Positions 2,785 through 14,041 of a stretch of 62,623 bases of DNA are shown here, in pieces (the first letter of the stretch is position 1; every line of letters starts with the position of its first letter). The DNA lies in IMG/VR virus record IMGVR_UViG_3300042452_000337, positions 1 to 62,623 of that record; one strand, written 5' to 3'. The notes beneath the pieces were generated by a model that did not search any database, was not told where the DNA came from, and was given only the letters and a program-made list of their open reading frames with translations. The stretch comes from a virus. Both the position numbers and the translations under genes were made by a program.

Positions 2785-4116
2785 ATGCCTACCAATGAGG
2801 ACACTGGCACTCTTGCGGATCGCCTTCTGTCGGAGGTGCCGCAGCACGACGCGAACGGGTTTGCTATCGCTCACCCCTACTTGCATCGTGAAACCAACAC
2901 GCTGTACGGGCCCGATGGATTCAACATCGACGGCTTCAATCTGTCCGGGTTTGACAGGGAAGGGTACGACGAGCGCGGGTTCAACGAAAACAACCTGCAT
3001 CGTGAGACAGGCACGCACTACCACCCCGTCGATCACCTGACATGGGATCGCGGACGATACAGCGAGGACAACAACGACCTCGACTGGCGTGGCCGTGACC
3101 GCTGCGACAACGGCGAGTGCGAGGACATGGAATGTGAGTCCTGCAACCCGCCGGATGACGACGAGGAGCCCGTCGATGCGTCTTTCAACGACCGACTCGA
3201 CTCATACGGCGAGAAAGCACCCCGCAAGTTGGGCTGGTCTGACCACAGCCATCGCACGTTCGACGGCGAGTACGTGGCAGACCGCACGCTCTATGCGGGC
3301 CACGAGATCGAGATGTATGCGGACGACGAGGACTACAGCAGCGTCGAGCACGTTCTCGACCAACTCAACTCCGCGTACCGCAACTTCAAGCCGCAGACGC
3401 GGACGCTACGTTGCGCCATCGCCAAGTACGACGGCTCGCTTGAATACAAAGACGGCGGCTTCGAGGCGGTGACTGTTCCGCTCACACGCGAGCAGACCTA
3501 CGGAATCTTCGGGTCGTTTCGCGTACTGGGTGGCGGCTCCTGCTCGGCGTGGGACTGCGGCCCTGAGGTCGGCCATCACATCCACCTGTCACGTGCAGCG
3601 ATAGGCCCGCTGACGCTTGGCAAGTTGCTTGTGTTCGCCAACGTCGAGTGCAACCAGTTGTTCATCGAGCGGGTGGCCGGGCGCAAGGCGGACTACAACA
3701 CGTTCGCTTCCAAGAAACTGACCGATGCCATGCACGACAGACCCAATGCGGACAGGCACGAGGTCATCAACGTGACGAATCACACCGTCGAGTTCCGCAT
3801 GTTCAAATCCAACCTGCTCAGTCGTGGCATCCTCAAGAACTACGAGTTCGCCGTGTCGCTTGTGCGGTACTGCGAGCAAGTGGACTACGGCAACGGCGAG
3901 GAGCCGGAAGATAGCGACCACCCGCTGCACTACCTGTCGTACCGGCGGTGGCTTGCGGCCAAGCACGCAGAGTACCCGTACCTGCACCAGTTCTTCCTGT
4001 CTCACGGGAGCATGGCCCGCAACTACCGCCAGCACGCGGGCCTCGCCAAGAACGCTGTCCCAACCGAACGCAGCCCGAAGTTCGCCCTCATCCGGACGTC
4101 GGCTATCGGTGCCTGA
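2785..4116 (+). CDS. Amidoligase (COOH-NH2 ligase) with N-terminal GFN repeats
   Basis: 443 aa. The C-terminal half matches amidoligase-type COOH-NH2 ligases, which form amide bonds with ATP: GHEIEM (172-177) for metal/ATP contacts, DGSLE (216-220), GHHIHLSR (263-270), and VEFRMFKSNL (335-344). The N-terminal region is unusual. It has five exact 5-residue repeats at about 44-68 (DGFNI, DGFNL, SGFDR, EGYDE, RGFNE) flanked by two copies of LHRETxTxY (33-41 and 71-79). A Cys/Asp-rich stretch (105-130) follows. The neighbour is a class II glutamine amidotransferase; the two may together ligate ammonia or an amine to a carboxyl group. Amidoligases are known in phages with such partners, but the substrate is unknown. 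Start supported by GAGGAG. Confidence 0.85.
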   Translation: MPTNEDTGTLADRLLSEVPQHDANGFAIAHPYLHRETNTLYGPDGFNIDGFNLSGFDREGYDERGFNENNLHRETGTHYHPVDHLTWDRGRYSEDNNDLDWRGRDRCDNGECEDMECESCNPPDDDEEPVDASFNDRLDSYGEKAPRKLGWSDHSHRTFDGEYVADRTLYAGHEIEMYADDEDYSSVEHVLDQLNSAYRNFKPQTRTLRCAIAKYDGSLEYKDGGFEAVTVPLTREQTYGIFGSFRVLGGGSCSAWDCGPEVGHHIHLSRAAIGPLTLGKLLVFANVECNQLFIERVAGRKADYNTFASKKLTDAMHDRPNADRHEVINVTNHTVEFRMFKSNLLSRGILKNYEFAVSLVRYCEQVDYGNGEEPEDSDHPLHYLSYRRWLAAKHAEYPYLHQFFLSHGSMARNYRQHAGLAKNAVPTERSPKFALIRTSAIGA

Positions 4117-4159
4117 CTTTTCATTCCCATTCATCATTCACACACAGGAGACACACGCT

Positions 4160-4990
4160 ATGTGCCTTGCAATCTACAAGCCCGCCACCACCGCCGCCGA
4201 CTGGGACGCCTACGCGGCGGGCCACAACTCCAACGCCCACTCATGGGGTTTCGCCGCCGTCGTTGACGGCCAACTCGTCACGCGATGCGGCATCGGTACG
4301 TTCGCAGAGTTCAAGCAGGCGTTCGAGCCTTACGCTGACAAGCAGGCCATCATCCACTTCCGATGGGCCACGCACGGCAGCAAGACGGAGGCCAACTGCC
4401 ACCCGTTCCTTGTGAGCGACGACCTCGCCGTCATTCACAACGGCATCATCCACATCGAGTGCAGCGTCCACTCCGACCGCTCGGACACGTGGCACTTCAA
4501 CGAGTTGGTGCTGCGGCCCATGCACTCACGCGATCCGGACTTCTACTCCCGGCCCGATGTGATCTACACGATGGAGCAGGCACACGGGGGCAACAAGTTC
4601 GTGTTCCTGCGTGCGGACGGGGACTGCGGAATCTGGAACGCCGACGCTGGCAAGTGGGAGTCCGACGGCCACTGGTATTCCAACAGTGACTACAAGGGAT
4701 ACAGCATCGGCTATCGCTGGGCCCGCCAGTCCACGCCCGCCGTCACGGCGGAGCCCCGCTGGTGGGAGGCCGACGAGGGAAAGTTCCAGTACGACGAGGA
4801 CACGCTCGGCGGCACCGCCTCCGCAACCATCGACATCGAGGCCGACGACGACGAGATGGATGACGCGATGGAGTACACCGACCTTCGGCTGTACGACCTT
4901 CGCATGTACGGGTTCAGTCGCAAGACCCTGACCGAAGTGTTCGAGTTGACGGGTCACTTGGGGATCGAGGCACTGCACGACGCTATCTAG
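4160..4990 (+). CDS. Class II glutamine amidotransferase-like protein
   Basis: 276 aa. The start MCLAIY places Cys at position 2, the N-terminal nucleophile of Ntn-type glutamine amidotransferases. Other family marks are HFRWATHGS (66-74), NCHPF (79-83), HNGII (93-97) and an aspartate in DRSDT (106-110). The expected reaction is release of ammonia from glutamine. The C-terminal 100 residues are acidic and not recognised. SD CAGGAG precedes the ATG; an upstream in-frame extension overlaps the amidoligase and would hide Cys2, so it is rejected. Adjacency to the amidoligase (43 bases) suggests a two-gene amide-forming system. Confidence 0.85.
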   Translation: MCLAIYKPATTAADWDAYAAGHNSNAHSWGFAAVVDGQLVTRCGIGTFAEFKQAFEPYADKQAIIHFRWATHGSKTEANCHPFLVSDDLAVIHNGIIHIECSVHSDRSDTWHFNELVLRPMHSRDPDFYSRPDVIYTMEQAHGGNKFVFLRADGDCGIWNADAGKWESDGHWYSNSDYKGYSIGYRWARQSTPAVTAEPRWWEADEGKFQYDEDTLGGTASATIDIEADDDEMDDAMEYTDLRLYDLRMYGFSRKTLTEVFELTGHLGIEALHDAI

Positions 4991-7358: not shown

Positions 7359-8225
7359 ATGACCGACGCTATCTCAATCGGTGCCCGCTCTGGCGGTGTC
7401 TGCATCCTCAATGCGGCGACCGCTCGGCGTGACACCGTGTTCGCTGCGGCCGATGCGGTTGGCTGCGGCAGGTACGTGCCTGCCCAGCCAGCCACTACCA
7501 CCACCCTCTCGATTGCCATGAAGGCGGTGGGCCGCACGCTGTATGGCAAGAAGCGCAAGCAGCCGATCAGTACCCGTCACATCGACGGCGACTCGTTCGA
7601 GTGCGTGCGTGTCGTGCCGTCGAGCGACCGCAACGACTACGTTCACCTGTTCTCTGCCCGGATCGACCGGGACTGGAACGTGAAGGTACTGGCACACAAC
7701 CACGACCAGCAATCGTGGACGCTGGATGCCGCACTCAGCAGTGCGGTCGTGACCATGCGTGACTTCCTGCCGTCGCCCATCGTGTCGCAGGTGGCGGTCA
7801 AGATGCTCACCTCATGGAAGGGTGTGCTGCTCAAAGACGACGGCGGTGTGTGGTTCCTTGCCGACGAGCATCTCGACAAGTACCGCACGTTCGCCGCTGG
7901 CCTGCGACAGAACGGCAGTAGCCCGAACTTCACACTCACCACCTTCCCCATCGACGCCAACCCTGACACGGTGGCACACGTGATCCAGAAGGTGCGTGAC
8001 ACGGTGAACGAGGGCGTCCAGCAGATCATGCAGGATGTGCTGGAGGCAGGCGGCGGGATGAACGACCGCTCGATCAACGTCCGCCTGTCCCGTGCCAACA
8101 AACTGCTCGCCCTCGTGGAGCAGTACCAGTCCCTCACCGGCATCGCTATGCCGGAACTGACCGATGCAATCGAGCAGTGCAAGCAGGCGGTTGCGGTCAA
8201 CCGTCTCCTCGCTGCTTCTGTCTGA
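7359..8225 (+). CDS. Conserved-looking hypothetical protein (288 aa)
   Basis: I do not recognise the family. The N-terminal 55 residues form a separate Ala/Thr-rich segment; the core (about 80-230) reads as a mixed alpha/beta fold with KGVLLKDDGGVWFL and DRDWNVKVLAHN. The C-terminal 60 residues are helical. Start supported by AAGGAGG. It precedes the HTH, MoxR and VWA/metallopeptidase genes in the same direction, so it may serve that group; that is inference from order alone. Confidence 0.75.
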   Translation: MTDAISIGARSGGVCILNAATARRDTVFAAADAVGCGRYVPAQPATTTTLSIAMKAVGRTLYGKKRKQPISTRHIDGDSFECVRVVPSSDRNDYVHLFSARIDRDWNVKVLAHNHDQQSWTLDAALSSAVVTMRDFLPSPIVSQVAVKMLTSWKGVLLKDDGGVWFLADEHLDKYRTFAAGLRQNGSSPNFTLTTFPIDANPDTVAHVIQKVRDTVNEGVQQIMQDVLEAGGGMNDRSINVRLSRANKLLALVEQYQSLTGIAMPELTDAIEQCKQAVAVNRLLAASV

Positions 8226-8664: not shown

Positions 8665-8745
8665 CCGGTGCGGAGTCTAGTTTCTGGGGAGGGGTGGTAA
8701 CGTACTGCCCCTCCCCTTTCCCTTCACTTGAGGAGTTGATCCATC
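8665..8745 (+). promoter_or_regulatory. 15-mer element copy 12 and terminator leader
   Basis: CCGGTGCGGAGTCTA at 8665-8679 (two differences from consensus), followed by a very GC-rich hairpin and SD TGAGGAG. Spacing to ATG is 66 bases. It is the last intergenic copy in the arm. Confidence 0.6.
8686..8724 (+). terminator. Intrinsic terminator-like hairpin
   Basis: 9-bp stem GGGGAGGGG (8686-8694) with CCCCTCCCC (8708-8716), then TTTCCCTT. Upstream of the MoxR ATPase gene. Confidence 0.7.
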
Positions 8746-9849
8746 ATGGCCCGTACCAATCTCGGCAATACCCCTGCGTTCCTTGCCTGTCAGGTGGTGC
8801 CCGTCCTTGTGCGTGGCGGCACCGGCGTCGGCAAGTCATCAACGTGGGAGGCCCTTGCCGCTGCACTCAAGCGGACATTCATCCCGCTGCTCGGTGCAAC
8901 CCACCTGCCCGAAGACTTCTCCGGCTACCCGACGCCAGACCACAAGGCACAGGTCACTCGCATGATGGCCTCGTCGTGGGTCGCCAAGACTCGTGACGGC
9001 AAGGCACTCGTGCATGTGGACGAGGTGACGAACGTCCCTCCTGCCACACAGGGTGGCCTGCTCTCCGTGATCTCGGAGCGGCGAGTCGGTGACGAGGTGA
9101 TGCCCGAGTCCACCATCGTGGTGGGTTCATGCAACCCGCCGGAACTGTGCCCAAATGCAGTGCCTCTGTCGCCTGCCATGCGGGCACGGTTCTTCCACCA
9201 CGACTGGGTTGTGGACTACGACCACTGGTTCGCTGGCCTGCGTGCTGGCTGCGAGTGGACGGCACCGGAGTTTCCCATTGTCCCGGATCACTGGCGTGAC
9301 TTCCTCCCTCAGTTCGGCTCGCTCGTGGAGGCGTTCCTCCGTGCGGCCCCCGACTGCCGGGAGAAGTTGCCGACCGATGACGAGACGATGAGTTTCCCCA
9401 ACTGCCGCACGTGGACGTACCTCGTCAAGTGCTTCGCCGCTGCGGAGGCGTGCGGGTACGAGCGTGAGCACGCCATCTACAAGGCACTCGCACTAGGCAA
9501 CGTGGGCGAGGGCGTCGGCGGTGAGTTCCTCCGCTACTGGCGGAACCTTGACCTCGCCAACCCGGAGGCGTTCCTCTCGGGCGAGGAGAAGTACGAGTAC
9601 GTGAAGCGGCCGGATGCCAACATCTGCCTGCTCACTGGTCTGGTCAAGGGGCTGCGTGATAACACCAGCGAGGAGCGTTGGGTCAACGCAGCGAAGGTGT
9701 TCATCACCATCGGGGAACAGGAGATCGAGTCGTTCCTCATGCAGTTCAAGTCCTTGTGGCGTCCGGTCAAGGACGGTGGCGTGCGGCCCGATGGCTGGAC
9801 TCCCCCGAAGGATGTGCTTGCGAAGATGATGGCTCTGGTTCAGTCGTGA
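8746..9849 (+). CDS. MoxR-type AAA ATPase
   Basis: 367 aa. Walker A GGTGVGKSS (24-32), Walker B with D92-E93 in LVHVDEV, sensor-1 Asn130 in GSCNPPE, and RARFF (146-150) as the arginine region. MoxR ATPases work as chaperones with VWA-domain partners. Such a partner (HEXXH plus VWA) is encoded 466 bases downstream, with two small genes between. Start follows TGAGGAG. Together they form a likely remodelling pair acting in the cytoplasm. The C-terminal 150 residues are helical and specific to this protein. Confidence 0.9.
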   Translation: MARTNLGNTPAFLACQVVPVLVRGGTGVGKSSTWEALAAALKRTFIPLLGATHLPEDFSGYPTPDHKAQVTRMMASSWVAKTRDGKALVHVDEVTNVPPATQGGLLSVISERRVGDEVMPESTIVVGSCNPPELCPNAVPLSPAMRARFFHHDWVVDYDHWFAGLRAGCEWTAPEFPIVPDHWRDFLPQFGSLVEAFLRAAPDCREKLPTDDETMSFPNCRTWTYLVKCFAAAEACGYEREHAIYKALALGNVGEGVGGEFLRYWRNLDLANPEAFLSGEEKYEYVKRPDANICLLTGLVKGLRDNTSEERWVNAAKVFITIGEQEIESFLMQFKSLWRPVKDGGVRPDGWTPPKDVLAKMMALVQS

Positions 9850-9871
9850 TTCACACACACAGGAGATACCA

Positions 9872-10090
9872 ATGGGACGCATACTTCAATGGGAAACAGT
9901 CGTGATGAGCCGCGAGAGTGCGGAACATATTTGGAAATCGTTCGAGCCGACAGACCCACTGATCGCTTTCTATATCCGCAAAGACCTCGACACGCAGGAC
10001 GGCCACTTCGTGAACGTCGAACTTCCGTTGAGCGATGTGGCGAAGGTGAAAGAAGTTGTTCGTAAGTTGGCAGAAGGGAGGGCTGAGTGA
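9872..10090 (+). CDS. Hypothetical protein (72 aa)
   Basis: Unrecognised, mixed alpha/beta (WETVVMSRESAEHIWKS). Starts after CAGGAGA, and its stop overlaps the next ATG (TGATG). It lies between the MoxR ATPase and its VWA partner and might be an accessory subunit. Confidence 0.7.
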   Translation: MGRILQWETVVMSRESAEHIWKSFEPTDPLIAFYIRKDLDTQDGHFVNVELPLSDVAKVKEVVRKLAEGRAE

Positions 10091-10314
10091 TGTGCGTGTG
10101 GTATGAGGTCGATCAAGGCGAAGAGCGATGCCTCCCCGACAAGGAGAGGCGTGTGCTTGTCGCACAGGATGATGGCTACATAGAGATGGCGTACTGGAAC
10201 GGTCAAGACTTTGAGTTTGACTGGCCGACACTGGCCGTCGCACCAGCACCTCGCGTGCGGTACTGGTGCGACCTGCCAGAGACACCTACGGAGGACGGCG
10301 AAGCGCCGTACTGA
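10090..10314 (+). CDS. DUF551-like small protein (74 aa)
   Basis: The C-terminal part (VRYWCDLPETP) and the VLVAQDDGYIEMAYW core resemble the DUF551 layout, more weakly than the gene at 2347. The ATG at 10090 overlaps the previous stop. The GTG three bases upstream is an alternative start. Unknown role. Confidence 0.65.
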   Translation: MCVWYEVDQGEERCLPDKERRVLVAQDDGYIEMAYWNGQDFEFDWPTLAVAPAPRVRYWCDLPETPTEDGEAPY

Positions 10315-10315
10315 C

Positions 10316-11719
10316 ATGACACCACGACAACTACTGGGCCAAGCACGGGTGCATACCTTCGAGTACGTGCCCTACCTTGCGTCCTACATCTACAGCCTGC
10401 GTGAGCAGGAGACACCGGGCATCGGCACGGCTGCGGTGGACGAGGCGGGCAACCTCTACTGGTGCCCGAAGTTCGTGTCGGAGATCGGCCGTGACCAGAC
10501 GGCGTACCTCGTGGCACACGAGGCACTGCATCTGGGGTACGACCACCACTCACGGGCGAGGGAGATCATCGGTGAACACGCCGACGAGTTCCATCGCTTC
10601 GTGTGCAACGTGGCGGGCGACCTCGTGATCGAGCAGACCCTTCACATGATGCGGCACCTGCGACCGGAGGGGTGCGTGCATCTAGGCTGCAAGATCGAGG
10701 CGTGGGGTATCACGCTGGACTTCCCCGAGAACAAGTCCATGCAGGAGTACTACCGGCTGATCCTTGAGAAACTCAAGGGCCAGCAATCACCCAAGCAGGA
10801 GCAAAGCAATGACGGCCAGCACGGCAATGACAATCAGAATCCCGGAGATGCGAACGCTGACAGCGATGGAGAAACTGAGGGCAGTCAGGGCGATGGCTCG
10901 CAGGTTCCGCCTCCAAGCGGAGCGGGACAGCCTCCGTCTGGGCAGGGCCAAGTACCACCACCGCCCGGTGCGCCGGGTACGGGTGGCTCGTGCGGCGACG
11001 GTCAGGCCCGTCCGTACGAGATAGAGAACGACGGCTCGTGGGAAACATGGGGCAGCGACATGGCCGCAGCCAAAGCGGAGGAGGCCATCGCTGAGTACGA
11101 GCAGCAGCACGGCAAGGGTTCGGTTCCCGGCAGCATCAAGCAGGCACTCGACTGCAAGTTGCGTCCGCAGCCAGACCCCTTTGACAAACTGCGGTCGGCT
11201 GTGTGTACGAGCGTGGCATCGCCGGTCGGCGGGCGGGACTTCTCGCACCGCCGCCGGTCACGCAAGCAGCCGCCGGGTGACGACGACCCGCTGCTGCATG
11301 GCCGCATCACAGTGCAGCCTCACGCCGTCGTGATCGTGGATACCTCCGGCTCGATGATGGACAAGGACACGCAAGCCCGTGCCCTGTCAGTAATCAGTCA
11401 GGGCATCCGCAAACTGTCCCGCGTCAAGGTGTTCTGTGCCGACACGCACGTGCGCTCACACGCTCTGGTCGCTACGACGAAGGCGTTCGAGTGGCACGGC
11501 GGTGGCGGCACCAGCATGGCACGTGCCATCGCGGAGGTGGATCGCACGGACAAGCCGGACTCCATCATCCTCGTCACCGATGCCATCACCGCCTGGCCCG
11601 CCAAGAAGCCACGTGCCCGCGTGGTCGTCGCGTACACGGGCGTGGTCGGCAGTACCTATCACAAGCGCATCCCATCGTGGTGCCGCACTGTTCCACTGGA
11701 AGGAGGAGCCAATGCCTGA
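10316..11719 (+). CDS. Metallopeptidase-like/VWA protein (DUF2201-type), MoxR partner
   Basis: 467 aa. The N-terminal part carries HEALHLGYDHH (68-78), a zinc peptidase-type HEXXH motif with a further His. A Gln/Gly/Pro-rich linker spans about 155-230. The C-terminus is a VWA domain with complete MIDAS-type residues: DTSGS (342-346), T399 and D422. This arrangement is that of VWA-like metallopeptidase proteins that pair with MoxR ATPases, and such an ATPase lies just upstream. Possible roles are protein remodelling or metal insertion. The start ATG at 10316 is three bases after the preceding stop; a longer upstream frame overlaps the previous gene and is rejected. Confidence 0.85.
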   Translation: MTPRQLLGQARVHTFEYVPYLASYIYSLREQETPGIGTAAVDEAGNLYWCPKFVSEIGRDQTAYLVAHEALHLGYDHHSRAREIIGEHADEFHRFVCNVAGDLVIEQTLHMMRHLRPEGCVHLGCKIEAWGITLDFPENKSMQEYYRLILEKLKGQQSPKQEQSNDGQHGNDNQNPGDANADSDGETEGSQGDGSQVPPPSGAGQPPSGQGQVPPPPGAPGTGGSCGDGQARPYEIENDGSWETWGSDMAAAKAEEAIAEYEQQHGKGSVPGSIKQALDCKLRPQPDPFDKLRSAVCTSVASPVGGRDFSHRRRSRKQPPGDDDPLLHGRITVQPHAVVIVDTSGSMMDKDTQARALSVISQGIRKLSRVKVFCADTHVRSHALVATTKAFEWHGGGGTSMARAIAEVDRTDKPDSIILVTDAITAWPAKKPRARVVVAYTGVVGSTYHKRIPSWCRTVPLEGGANA

Positions 11720-12602
11720 GGTCAAGCGGCGGGTTCGTACTTACGAGCAACTGGATCGGATGCTGTGCAAGCGGCCGACACGAGGGAACTTCCTTGTGTC
11801 CACCAATGTGTACGGCAAGGTCAATGCGTCTGCGGACTTCACGAACTCCAGCCCGGAGATCGTGCTGAAGTACGTGGCACAGGGAGGCCACTACTTCTTC
11901 GAGGTCGCCCGTGTGTGGCGTGTGTCGGGCGGCGACACCGTGTACAGGGTGTCTGGGTGCAGGGCGGAGATACGCAAGGAGGCGGTCGGCCGGAAGCGTT
12001 ATCGCAAGTACGTCCAGCGGCTCACCCCTCGTGACATCACTGGCCGCACGCCACGTGAACACGACGTTCGGTGGTATCGGATACGGGATGGGGTGGCGAC
12101 GCAGATCGAGGGCCCGCCGAAAGGCAGGCCGTTCTGCTGGACGTCCTTGCCTCAGTGCATCACGCCCTCGCTCAAGGAGTGGCTTGCCTCGCACGGCACC
12201 CTGCCCAAGTTCGTAGCCCGCAGCAGGGCGTTCGCCATCAACCTGCGGAGGGGACTGGCGGACGGACTGCCGTGCCAAGTGCAGTTGCTTACGCACCGGC
12301 AGGCTCCGGCAGGCGGGCTCAGCAGCAAGACGAGTTCCCTGTGGCTACACGTTTGCACGCCACCGACGGGCACGAGCAACGGGCGGCGGCTTGTGATCGA
12401 GACGTTCACGCACTCCCGAGAGTCCCGCACCCACTTCCACGTGGACGGCGACTACGGGATGCGGCACTCGCAGTTCGCTGCCCTTGAGCCAAAGGGGCCG
12501 CACGGCTGGCGAGTGGTTGACCGATGGCCGTGTGCCCGCGACGCCATCGCTGGCATCAAAGAGTGGGTTCTTTCGACGGTCTACATTCCCGGCCCCATGT
12601 GA
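11712..12602 (+). CDS. Hypothetical protein (296 aa)
   Basis: Unrecognised. Beta-rich, basic protein with several Trp and Arg; no membrane segment. It overlaps the VWA gene by 8 bases and has SD GGAGGAG inside it, so it is translated with the MoxR/VWA pair and may be its third component or its substrate. That link is inference from context. Confidence 0.75.
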   Translation: MPEVKRRVRTYEQLDRMLCKRPTRGNFLVSTNVYGKVNASADFTNSSPEIVLKYVAQGGHYFFEVARVWRVSGGDTVYRVSGCRAEIRKEAVGRKRYRKYVQRLTPRDITGRTPREHDVRWYRIRDGVATQIEGPPKGRPFCWTSLPQCITPSLKEWLASHGTLPKFVARSRAFAINLRRGLADGLPCQVQLLTHRQAPAGGLSSKTSSLWLHVCTPPTGTSNGRRLVIETFTHSRESRTHFHVDGDYGMRHSQFAALEPKGPHGWRVVDRWPCARDAIAGIKEWVLSTVYIPGPM

Positions 12603-12613
12603 GGAGCACCATC

Positions 12614-12769
12614 ATGTTCACTTGGATCATTCGTATTGCACTGTTTTGTTTCATGGCGTGGACGATGAGCATTCCCGGAACGGAGTGCTATATCTCACCA
12701 GGCATCTGGTCGTGCATCATCCTCGCCTACTGGTTCTGCAATCACCCCATGCACACGAAGTGGAGGTAA
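12614..12769 (+). CDS. Small membrane protein (51 aa)
   Basis: Two hydrophobic segments: IIRIALFCFMAW near the N-terminus and IWSCIILAYWFC near the C-terminus, separated by a short loop. SD GAGGAGC. A holin-like role is possible because of size and topology, but its place in the early arm argues for a membrane-linked early function instead. Confidence 0.6.
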   Translation: MFTWIIRIALFCFMAWTMSIPGTECYISPGIWSCIILAYWFCNHPMHTKWR

Positions 12770-12771
12770 TC

Positions 12772-13512
12772 ATGCCAGTCGTTTATTGCTACGGTCGGGC
12801 CAGCACGAGCAGCCAGACCCTCACCGAAGACAATCAGCGTTCCGTGTGCGAGGAGTACGTGACTCGCTCGCTCGTGCCGGAGGGATACACCTATGGCGGG
12901 TGGCTGTACGACTCTGCCACCAGCGGCAGCAGGCCCATGTTCGAGCGGGAGGAGGGCCGCAAGTTGTGGGCCCTTGTCCAGCCGGGAGACAAGATCGTGT
13001 GGGCGAAGTTGGATCGGGCGTTCCGCTCCGTCCTCGACGCCGCCCAGACCATGATGCTCCTGTCGCAGAAGGGCGTGTCGTTCAACTCGCTGGACTTGGG
13101 CCTCGACACCAGCACGCCCATCGGCCGCTGTGTGTTCACCATCCTGACGGCGTTTGCCGAACTCGAACTAGAGTTTATCCGGCAACGCACGAGGGAGGGG
13201 CTGCGGGCCAAGCGGAAGTCCGGCAAGCCGCACGGCAGGCACGCCCCGATTGGCTGGCAGAAGATCGGCAAGAAGAAGGACTCGTACTACCTGCCCTGCC
13301 AGGAGGAGCGGGCTCAGGTCGCCACCATGCAGGCCATGCGGCGGGACGGGGCATCCCTCGAACGCATCACCCTCCACATGCACGGGGTTCGTCGGCCCAA
13401 TGGCAAGAGGTGGAACATCAACTCCATCACCCGTGCCCTCAGGGCGGCGGAGGCTCGCTTTCCAAAAGCCTTTGGAGAATCTCCAAAGCGGAGGCGAGCC
13501 GTCGCCGGATAG
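12772..13512 (+). CDS. Serine recombinase (resolvase/invertase family)
   Basis: 246 aa. The N-terminal catalytic domain starts VVYCYGRASTSSQ, with Ser11 as the expected nucleophile after YxRAS. Later family marks are IVWAKLDRAFRS, GVSFNSL, and FAELELEFIRQRTREGL (E-helix). The C-terminal part has a helix-turn-helix region (GASLERITLHMHG...RWNINSITRAL). Length fits small resolvases rather than large integrases. It could resolve genome multimers, invert a segment or integrate. SD GGAGG. Its 3' end overlaps the opposing sigma-factor gene by 74 bases. Confidence 0.9.
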   Translation: MPVVYCYGRASTSSQTLTEDNQRSVCEEYVTRSLVPEGYTYGGWLYDSATSGSRPMFEREEGRKLWALVQPGDKIVWAKLDRAFRSVLDAAQTMMLLSQKGVSFNSLDLGLDTSTPIGRCVFTILTAFAELELEFIRQRTREGLRAKRKSGKPHGRHAPIGWQKIGKKKDSYYLPCQEERAQVATMQAMRRDGASLERITLHMHGVRRPNGKRWNINSITRALRAAEARFPKAFGESPKRRRAVAG

Positions 13513-13957
13513 TGCGTGGGTCGCAGCCTGCTTGCTCGCCAATCTCCCGGAGAGACAGGCCCCGATAGAACCGGGCTTGGATCAACTTGCGGGACTTGGC
13601 GGGCAGGCGGGCGATGCACACGTGGAGCCTGCCTGTCAGCCCCTTCTGGGATGTGACCAGCACCTCCGCCAACTCCATCGGCACCCTGTCCGGTGAGTCG
13701 TAGCGGGCCCGGCGGTTCCGGTCGATCTCCTTGAGGATCGCATTGCGGATGGCGGTCGAGAAGTACGTCGTGACCTTCGACTGGGCAGGGTCGTACGTCA
13801 GGGCGGCACGGCAGATGGCAAGGTATGCCACGCTCGTGGAATCAATCGCCGCCACCTGCCTGCGAAGCGTGGGGTAGCGGCAGCGGAAGGCGGCCATCGC
13901 CTTCGGCACCACCGGCAGTGCGGATTCTACGAGCCTCTGCTGTTCGGGCGTGAGCAT
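13439..13957 (-). CDS. Sigma-70-family RNA polymerase sigma factor
   Basis: 172 aa from the ATG. Region 2-like segment: AYLAICRAALTYDPAQ and TTYFSTAIRNAILKEI. Region 4 helix-turn-helix: RLPAKSRKLIQARF then SLREIGEQAGCDPRTIRRRL. The size and two-region layout match ECF-type or phage sigma factors that redirect host RNA polymerase to phage promoters. No SD is clear; an in-frame TTG four codons upstream (13969) is an alternative start. A small inverted repeat (AACGG/CCGTT, 13972-13987) precedes it. It is convergent with the serine recombinase. Its target sites may be one of the two repeated motifs of this genome, which is inference. Confidence 0.85.
   Translation of the reverse strand: MLTPEQQRLVESALPVVPKAMAAFRCRYPTLRRQVAAIDSTSVAYLAICRAALTYDPAQSKVTTYFSTAIRNAILKEIDRNRRARYDSPDRVPMELAEVLVTSQKGLTGRLHVCIARLPAKSRKLIQARFYRGLSLREIGEQAGCDPRTIRRRLASALEILQRLLESEPPPP
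13452..13500. terminator. Nested palindrome in convergent 3' ends (possible bidirectional terminator)
   Basis: Inner arms CTTTGGAGA/TCTCCAAAG (13470-13478, 13480-13488) around a single A, and outer arms GGCTCGC (13452-13458) with GCGAGCC (13494-13500). It lies inside both coding regions and has no long T-tract, so it may stop or stall both transcripts. Confidence 0.45.
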
Positions 13958-14041
13958 CCATGCGGCCAATCAACGGGACGTACCGTTTCATGGGAGCATG
14001 GACAGGAGGCTCTCGATAGTCTCTCCCTTCGCTCAAGAGCG

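Follow-up and report, generated by a model that had tools for sequence, protein, structure and literature searches.

What a phage might do with a MoxR-type ATPase and a partner protein that joins a putative metallopeptidase to a VWA domain, and which neighbouring genes belong with that pair, are the questions raised by a plus-strand locus of the IMG/VR virus record IMGVR_UViG_3300042452_000337, the whole of which (62.6 kb; 62,623 nucleotides) is the window analysed here. An earlier note on this DNA had described a co-directional run made of the ATPase, two small genes, an HExxH plus VWA protein and a 296-aa protein (hereafter u296), and all five open reading frames were indeed borne out on the plus strand, at the positions given below. 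With a little over even confidence, we lean toward an AAA+ machine of N4 gp24/gp25 type that would remodel and clip proteins in the early or middle phase, with a DUF6744-like protein as third component and u296 as a lineage-specific addition.

The ATPase and its putative metallopeptidase-VWA partner

The ATPase gene (8746-9849, plus strand, 367 aa) matched the Pfam family AAA_5 (PF07728; E 4.5e-10, 40.1 bits for a cut-off of 22) and phrog_1297 (2.8e-34). Its Walker A motif GGTGVGKS at residue 24 (G24..K30) and its Walker B motif at 88-93 (D92, E93) were invariant among 14 aligned sequences, as were sensor-1 N130 and the arginine-finger candidates R146 and R148 in aligned relatives. The closest sequences of solved structure (PDB) were the AAA domains of midasin, in which an AAA ring acts together with a tethered MIDAS domain.

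The partner (10316-11719, plus strand, 467 aa) comprises a putative zinc metallopeptidase domain (DUF2201_N, PF13203; E 1.3e-20, 74.6 bits, cut-off 23.2), a low-complexity linker of about 60-95 residues, with a D/E content of 0.15-0.38 across relatives, and a VWA/MIDAS domain (DUF2201, PF09967; E 5e-11, 43.2 bits, cut-off 26.4) that ends at residue 457 of 467. The HExxH motif (68-72) and the MIDAS residues D342, S344 and S346 (DxSxS, 342-346), T399 and D422 were invariant across 17 aligned sequences, and D102, a candidate third metal ligand, was invariant in aligned relatives. An apparent splitting of the VWA gene by an insert at four related loci (L017, L032, L033 and L038) was rejected, the reading frames being intact and only the linker differing.

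With the window protein itself as query, a tblastn search of phage records gave no match; with the homologue from a Thermus phage, a DUF2201 protein was found in 556 phage records, so that the first result reflects distance rather than absence. A gene of Vibrio phage VBP47 (L116:5431-6732) was rejected as a DUF2201 member, since it codes for a Band_7 protein. It should be noted that the DUF2201 metallopeptidase-VWA protein bears the label "HNH endonuclease" in phrog_1314 and in many phage records, a label which its predicted domains do not support.

Constant and variable companions of the pair

Relatives were collected from IMG/VR with MoxR, VWA and u296 queries and alignments, together with one scan of GTDB species genomes, and were mapped with profiles at one locus per contig. 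This gave 39 viral loci and 8 loci from metagenome-assembled genomes (MAGs) of Planctomycetota, in which several contigs are near-copies, so that locus counts overstate independence; the MoxR tree held 37 distinct rows. Gene order in related phages, the point on which the earlier note had proposed to judge the unit, was kept wherever both genes occur: MoxR lay upstream of the VWA gene, on the same strand, in every related locus carrying the two. Ratios of nonsynonymous to synonymous substitution (dN/dS), calculated for seven pairs of relatives, were well below 1, as for genes under selection rather than chance reading frames, and ranged from 0.04 to 0.17 for MoxR and from 0.11 to 0.27 for the VWA protein, indicating purifying selection on both.

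The most constant companion of the pair was a gene that had not been listed before. This gene (7359-8225, plus strand, 288 aa) lies upstream of MoxR, and its relatives held that place in each of the 32 loci whose upstream sequence reached 3.5 kb or more. A Planctomycetota MAG contig (L103/L151) carries its counterpart, which the window protein matched at E 8.7e-12; this L103 homologue reaches 41.9 bits with the Pfam model of DUF6744 (PF20529; cut-off 27), and 14 of the 21 family members match PF20529. We call the window protein DUF6744-like because its own score falls under the Pfam threshold. Its AlphaFold2 (AF2) model, of good confidence (pLDDT 87.4), has an alpha/beta portion ahead of long helices at the C-terminus and gave no confident match in a fold search of the PDB. 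The dN/dS of the gene was 0.07-0.27, again indicating purifying selection. The place of "third gene", which had been given to u296, thus passes to the DUF6744-like gene, which on the evidence of gene order is the constant third component next to MoxR-VWA in this lineage. DUF6744 as a general marker of MoxR-VWA loci was rejected, such genes being elsewhere solitary or placed before another AAA+ gene. At three mutually related loci (L136-L138), DUF6744 genes stand directly 5' of a different AAA+ ATPase gene (PF00004), a hint that DUF6744 proteins may serve AAA+ motors generally. No mention of DUF6744 was found in the literature searched.

The orphan u296 (11712-12602, plus strand) is of more restricted distribution. 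It directly follows the VWA gene in 30 of the 39 viral loci, the window included, and in none of the eight MAG loci, and all rows that bear it fall in one clade of the MoxR tree (support 100/99); in that clade only L025 lacks it, a contig whose sequence stops within the VWA gene. A pattern search with u296 alone gave no relatives, and a search with its alignment gave 25 loci; u296 had no Pfam match. The family can be aligned from end to end, most members being 31-53% identical; the N-terminal parts vary, and the conserved C-terminus closes with EWVL..xYIPGP. One phage contig carries a tandem pair of family members behind the VWA gene (L009, 1454-2257 and 2299-3189). The AF2 model is confident (pLDDT 87.7), and a fold search with it gave no significant match in the PDB or BFVD; XisI-like matches (probability 0.80-0.98, E 0.05 or worse) were not relied on. 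The protein evolves fast: u296 was 29-51% identical to homologues whose MoxR is 71-88% identical, and its dN/dS (0.32-0.62) was the highest of the four genes in all seven pairs. A changing partner and a weak constraint fit these values alike and are inseparable on them. The earlier proposal of u296 as a substrate or adaptor therefore survives in a narrower form: its fast evolution and its position directly 3' of the VWA gene make it a candidate for either role, as a lineage-specific addition and not as a fixed part of the unit.

The two small genes did not prove to be part of a conserved unit. Small gene 1 (9872-10090, plus strand, 72 aa, with a start possibly at 9905) has no homologue in related loci, and small gene 2 (10087-10314, plus strand, 75 aa) is present in some relatives only; neither product matched a Pfam family. 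Because MoxR and the VWA gene may overlap by 4 bp in relatives or lie up to about 1.2 kb apart, with differing small genes in between, these two are a variable cargo slot rather than components. The overlaps described earlier exist between the two small genes (4 bp) and between the VWA gene and u296 (8 bp), the remaining junctions being free of overlap.

Genomic setting, repeated leader and host

The conserved neighbourhood exceeds the earlier outline not only upstream, with the DUF6744-like gene, but also downstream. A gene for a 51-aa hydrophobic protein, likely a membrane protein (12614-12769, plus strand; profile matches, no Pfam match), lies between u296 and the resolvase in the loci covering that region, and the serine recombinase or resolvase itself (PF00239; 12772-13512, plus strand) lies within 3 kb after the VWA gene in 46 of 47 loci. 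Convergent with it on the minus strand, a gene for a sigma-70-like factor (13439-13969) ends the block in nearly all related phages; this factor is a candidate reader of the late genes. Upstream and co-directional, an amidoligase-like gene (phrog_2443; 2785-4116) is followed by a class-II glutamine amidotransferase gene (4145-4990). The two were found upstream in 13 of the 19 loci whose upstream sequence extends 6.5 kb or more, and in L071 and L072 they stand between the DUF6744-like gene and MoxR; a peptide or protein modification pathway tied to the MoxR operon is possible.

On the plus strand, the MoxR-VWA unit is accompanied by RusA-like and regulatory genes and a repeated leader; the opposite, minus strand carries the capsid, portal and tail-type genes. 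The leader contains a 13-nt motif, CCGCTGCGGAGTC, of which nine exact copies, all on the plus strand, lie within the window's first 9 kb (461, 658, 1202, 1528, 2103, 2558, 2708, 5560 and 7248), with one-mismatch copies at 140, 6214 and 8665 on the same strand. The last of these precedes MoxR and forms, with a hairpin, a leader (8665-8716, plus strand) situated 5' of the ribosome-binding site. A scan of 22 records found the 12-nt core of the motif in 17, with 136 occurrences on the early-gene strand versus one on the other; 78 of the 136 sites were followed by a hairpin with 8 or more pairs, versus 11% of random 60-mers. The hairpin stems differ in sequence yet remain complementary, and a ribosome-binding site and then a start codon follow, the latter typically 70-90 nt (about 76) from the motif. 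The element recurs before early genes in the window phage and most of its close relatives; a fuller pattern of it retrieved 16 stretches from all of IMG/VR, most of them on contigs that the group already contained, and Rfam gave no match. The layout resembles the SAS/ESAS elements of mycobacteriophages, in which the inverted repeat is upstream of the motif, whereas the hairpin is downstream of it here (PMC3203893). The leader may possibly be an operator or stoperator, a terminator-antiterminator or a start-associated element.

The nearest VWA relatives in named genomes were on eight Planctomycetota MAG contigs from the GTDB species-genome scan. On one of these (G002:C100; L150-L153), which has PfkB/cytidylyltransferase, biotin-carboxylase-type and kinase-caspase genes, the DUF6744-MoxR-VWA block has a primase-type zinc-ribbon protein and a phage integrase nearby; by its gene content, this looks like a bacterial chromosome with an integrated element. 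Since the closest VWA relatives are found in Planctomycetota MAGs, one of them resembling an integrated element, Planctomycetota is the likely host phylum, a proposal that we make with moderate confidence and that would indicate hosts for a group of phages of about 60 kb. Two viral contigs deserve mention. Contig 3300042141_000119 (L019, L085), 62 kb long, has one part of the 296-aa gene at each end; this points to genomes of about 62 kb, circular or circularly permuted, in this phage group. In 3300005528_000063 (L024, L041), the ends carry differing DUF6744-MoxR copies, with MoxR 81% and 77% identical to that of the window; either a duplicated locus or a chimeric assembly would account for this.

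Possible functions and comparison with known systems

From a mechanistic point of view, the favoured machine is modelled on its domain families and on midasin-like and MoxR-VWA systems. The ATPase would assemble as a ring and pull using ATP, with the DUF2201 protein as its co-chaperone; the C-terminal VWA/MIDAS domain of this co-chaperone would grip a protein via a metal ion, and the flexible linker would tether it to the N-terminal zinc metallopeptidase, able to cut the protein so engaged. The DUF6744-like protein would be a dedicated third component, as adaptor, scaffold or regulated substrate, and u296 a later, lineage-specific adaptor or substrate meeting a changing partner. Because the unit sits among early or middle non-structural genes, on the strand opposite to the capsid, portal and tail-type genes, the mature virion would be a less likely target than an enzyme or a nucleoprotein complex of host or phage. 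Several points weigh against this proposal. A role in virion assembly has been put forward in the literature for a homologous pair (PMC7824862); synteny among related phages is in part shared ancestry; and DUF6744-type genes occur in other Planctomycetota and Actinomycetota regions where they do not adjoin MoxR-VWA. In addition, the MoxR-DUF2201 loci examined from N4-like phages, jumbo phages and cells yielded no relative of DUF6744, and the MoxR-VWA pair can therefore function without it.

The main rival, which we regard as rather doubtful, is virion assembly or maturation, with MoxR-VWA remodelling structural proteins and the peptidase trimming them during capsid or tail assembly. Such a role, in virion assembly and processing, was proposed for the MoxR and metallopeptidase-vWA pair of the group 2.2 jumbo phages, with the MoxR-vWA tail chaperones of Acidianus two-tailed virus as a precedent (PMC7824862), and one roseophage has a second, mid-phase structural module near its gp24/25 homologues (PMC4193335). 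However, the window genes lie amid non-structural genes on the strand opposite to the recognised structural genes, and gp24 and gp25 of N4 are middle transcripts (PMC4193335). A bolder version of the machine, in which DUF6744-MoxR-DUF2201 would form, in planctomycete phages and integrated elements, a distinct three-part AAA+/MIDAS/zincin machine, redirected against host complexes by an exchangeable downstream targeting subunit, u296, of apparently new fold, appears unlikely. Counter-defence or host takeover, in which the motor would extract or cut a host defence or regulatory complex with u296 as its fast-evolving targeting subunit, is distinctly unlikely. The rapid divergence of u296 relative to MoxR, its differing N-terminal parts and its leading dN/dS values speak for it, but these values stay below 1 and relaxed constraint explains them equally well, the defence-system library gave no usable match, and MoxR and the VWA protein are core and highly conserved, unlike typical accessory counter-defence genes. 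Metal insertion, which the earlier note had named as one activity of MoxR-VWA systems, by a machine akin to the CobS/CobT chelatase is highly improbable. The general resemblance among AAA plus MIDAS pairs and a weak MoxR match to phrog_249 "porphyrin biosynthesis" (E 0.002) are set against far stronger matches to phrog_1297 and DUF2201, the N-terminal domain, with its invariant HExxH, is a putative metallopeptidase, and general scans of the window proteins, in which no dedicated search was made, turned up no CobN-like subunit.

The other half of the earlier claim, a phage protein-remodelling pair, is supported by domain families and motifs, and the pair, judged by these, is not new but of the N4 gp24/gp25 type. 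In N4, gp24 is annotated as an AAA-superfamily ATPase and gp25 as a vWFA protein (PMC2784036), the gp25 type being annotated elsewhere as a pfam13203 metallopeptidase (PMC6992544); both belong to the conserved core genes of N4-like phages (PMC4193335). The Schitoviridae pair shares with the window the two domain families, their order and orientation, occasional small genes in between and a non-late position; it differs in phage group and predicted host, in the low identity of the window MoxR to phage records (about 20-27%) and in having neither a DUF6744 relative nor u296 in the loci examined. Pfam places DUF2201 beside MoxR also in Thermus phage phiFa, Stenotrophomonas phage C121 and Cronobacter phage GAP32. 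The group 2.2 jumbo phages likewise have a vWA domain fused to an N-terminal metallopeptidase and adjoining MoxR (PMC7824862), but are far larger than the window phage, and the GAP32 locus showed no detected DUF6744 or u296. In Dactylosporangium, Actinomycetes MAGs and Bacterium HR29, cellular MoxR and DUF2201 genes are adjacent as in the window; these pairs form a deep branch in the MoxR tree, and no DUF6744 or u296 was detected with them.

The VMAP ternary conflict systems resemble the window in combining MoxR, vWA and a third gene, with one fast-evolving component (PMC7159879), but the window vWA protein bears an N-terminal peptidase and, its VWA domain reaching nearly to the last residue, no C-terminal effector; in Pfam, no VMAP domain was matched at E<=1 in u296 or the DUF6744-like protein. 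RavA-ViaA, for its part, is recognised by a VWA partner free of peptidase, whereas the window partner carries DUF2201_N. For the gp24/gp25-type genes, highly conserved in N4-like phages and with DUF2201 in hundreds of records, no assigned function was found in the literature consulted. A lineage with a constant extra gene beside such a pair thus allows the DUF6744-like protein to be named as a concrete third partner, and u296 as a candidate on the side of the target.

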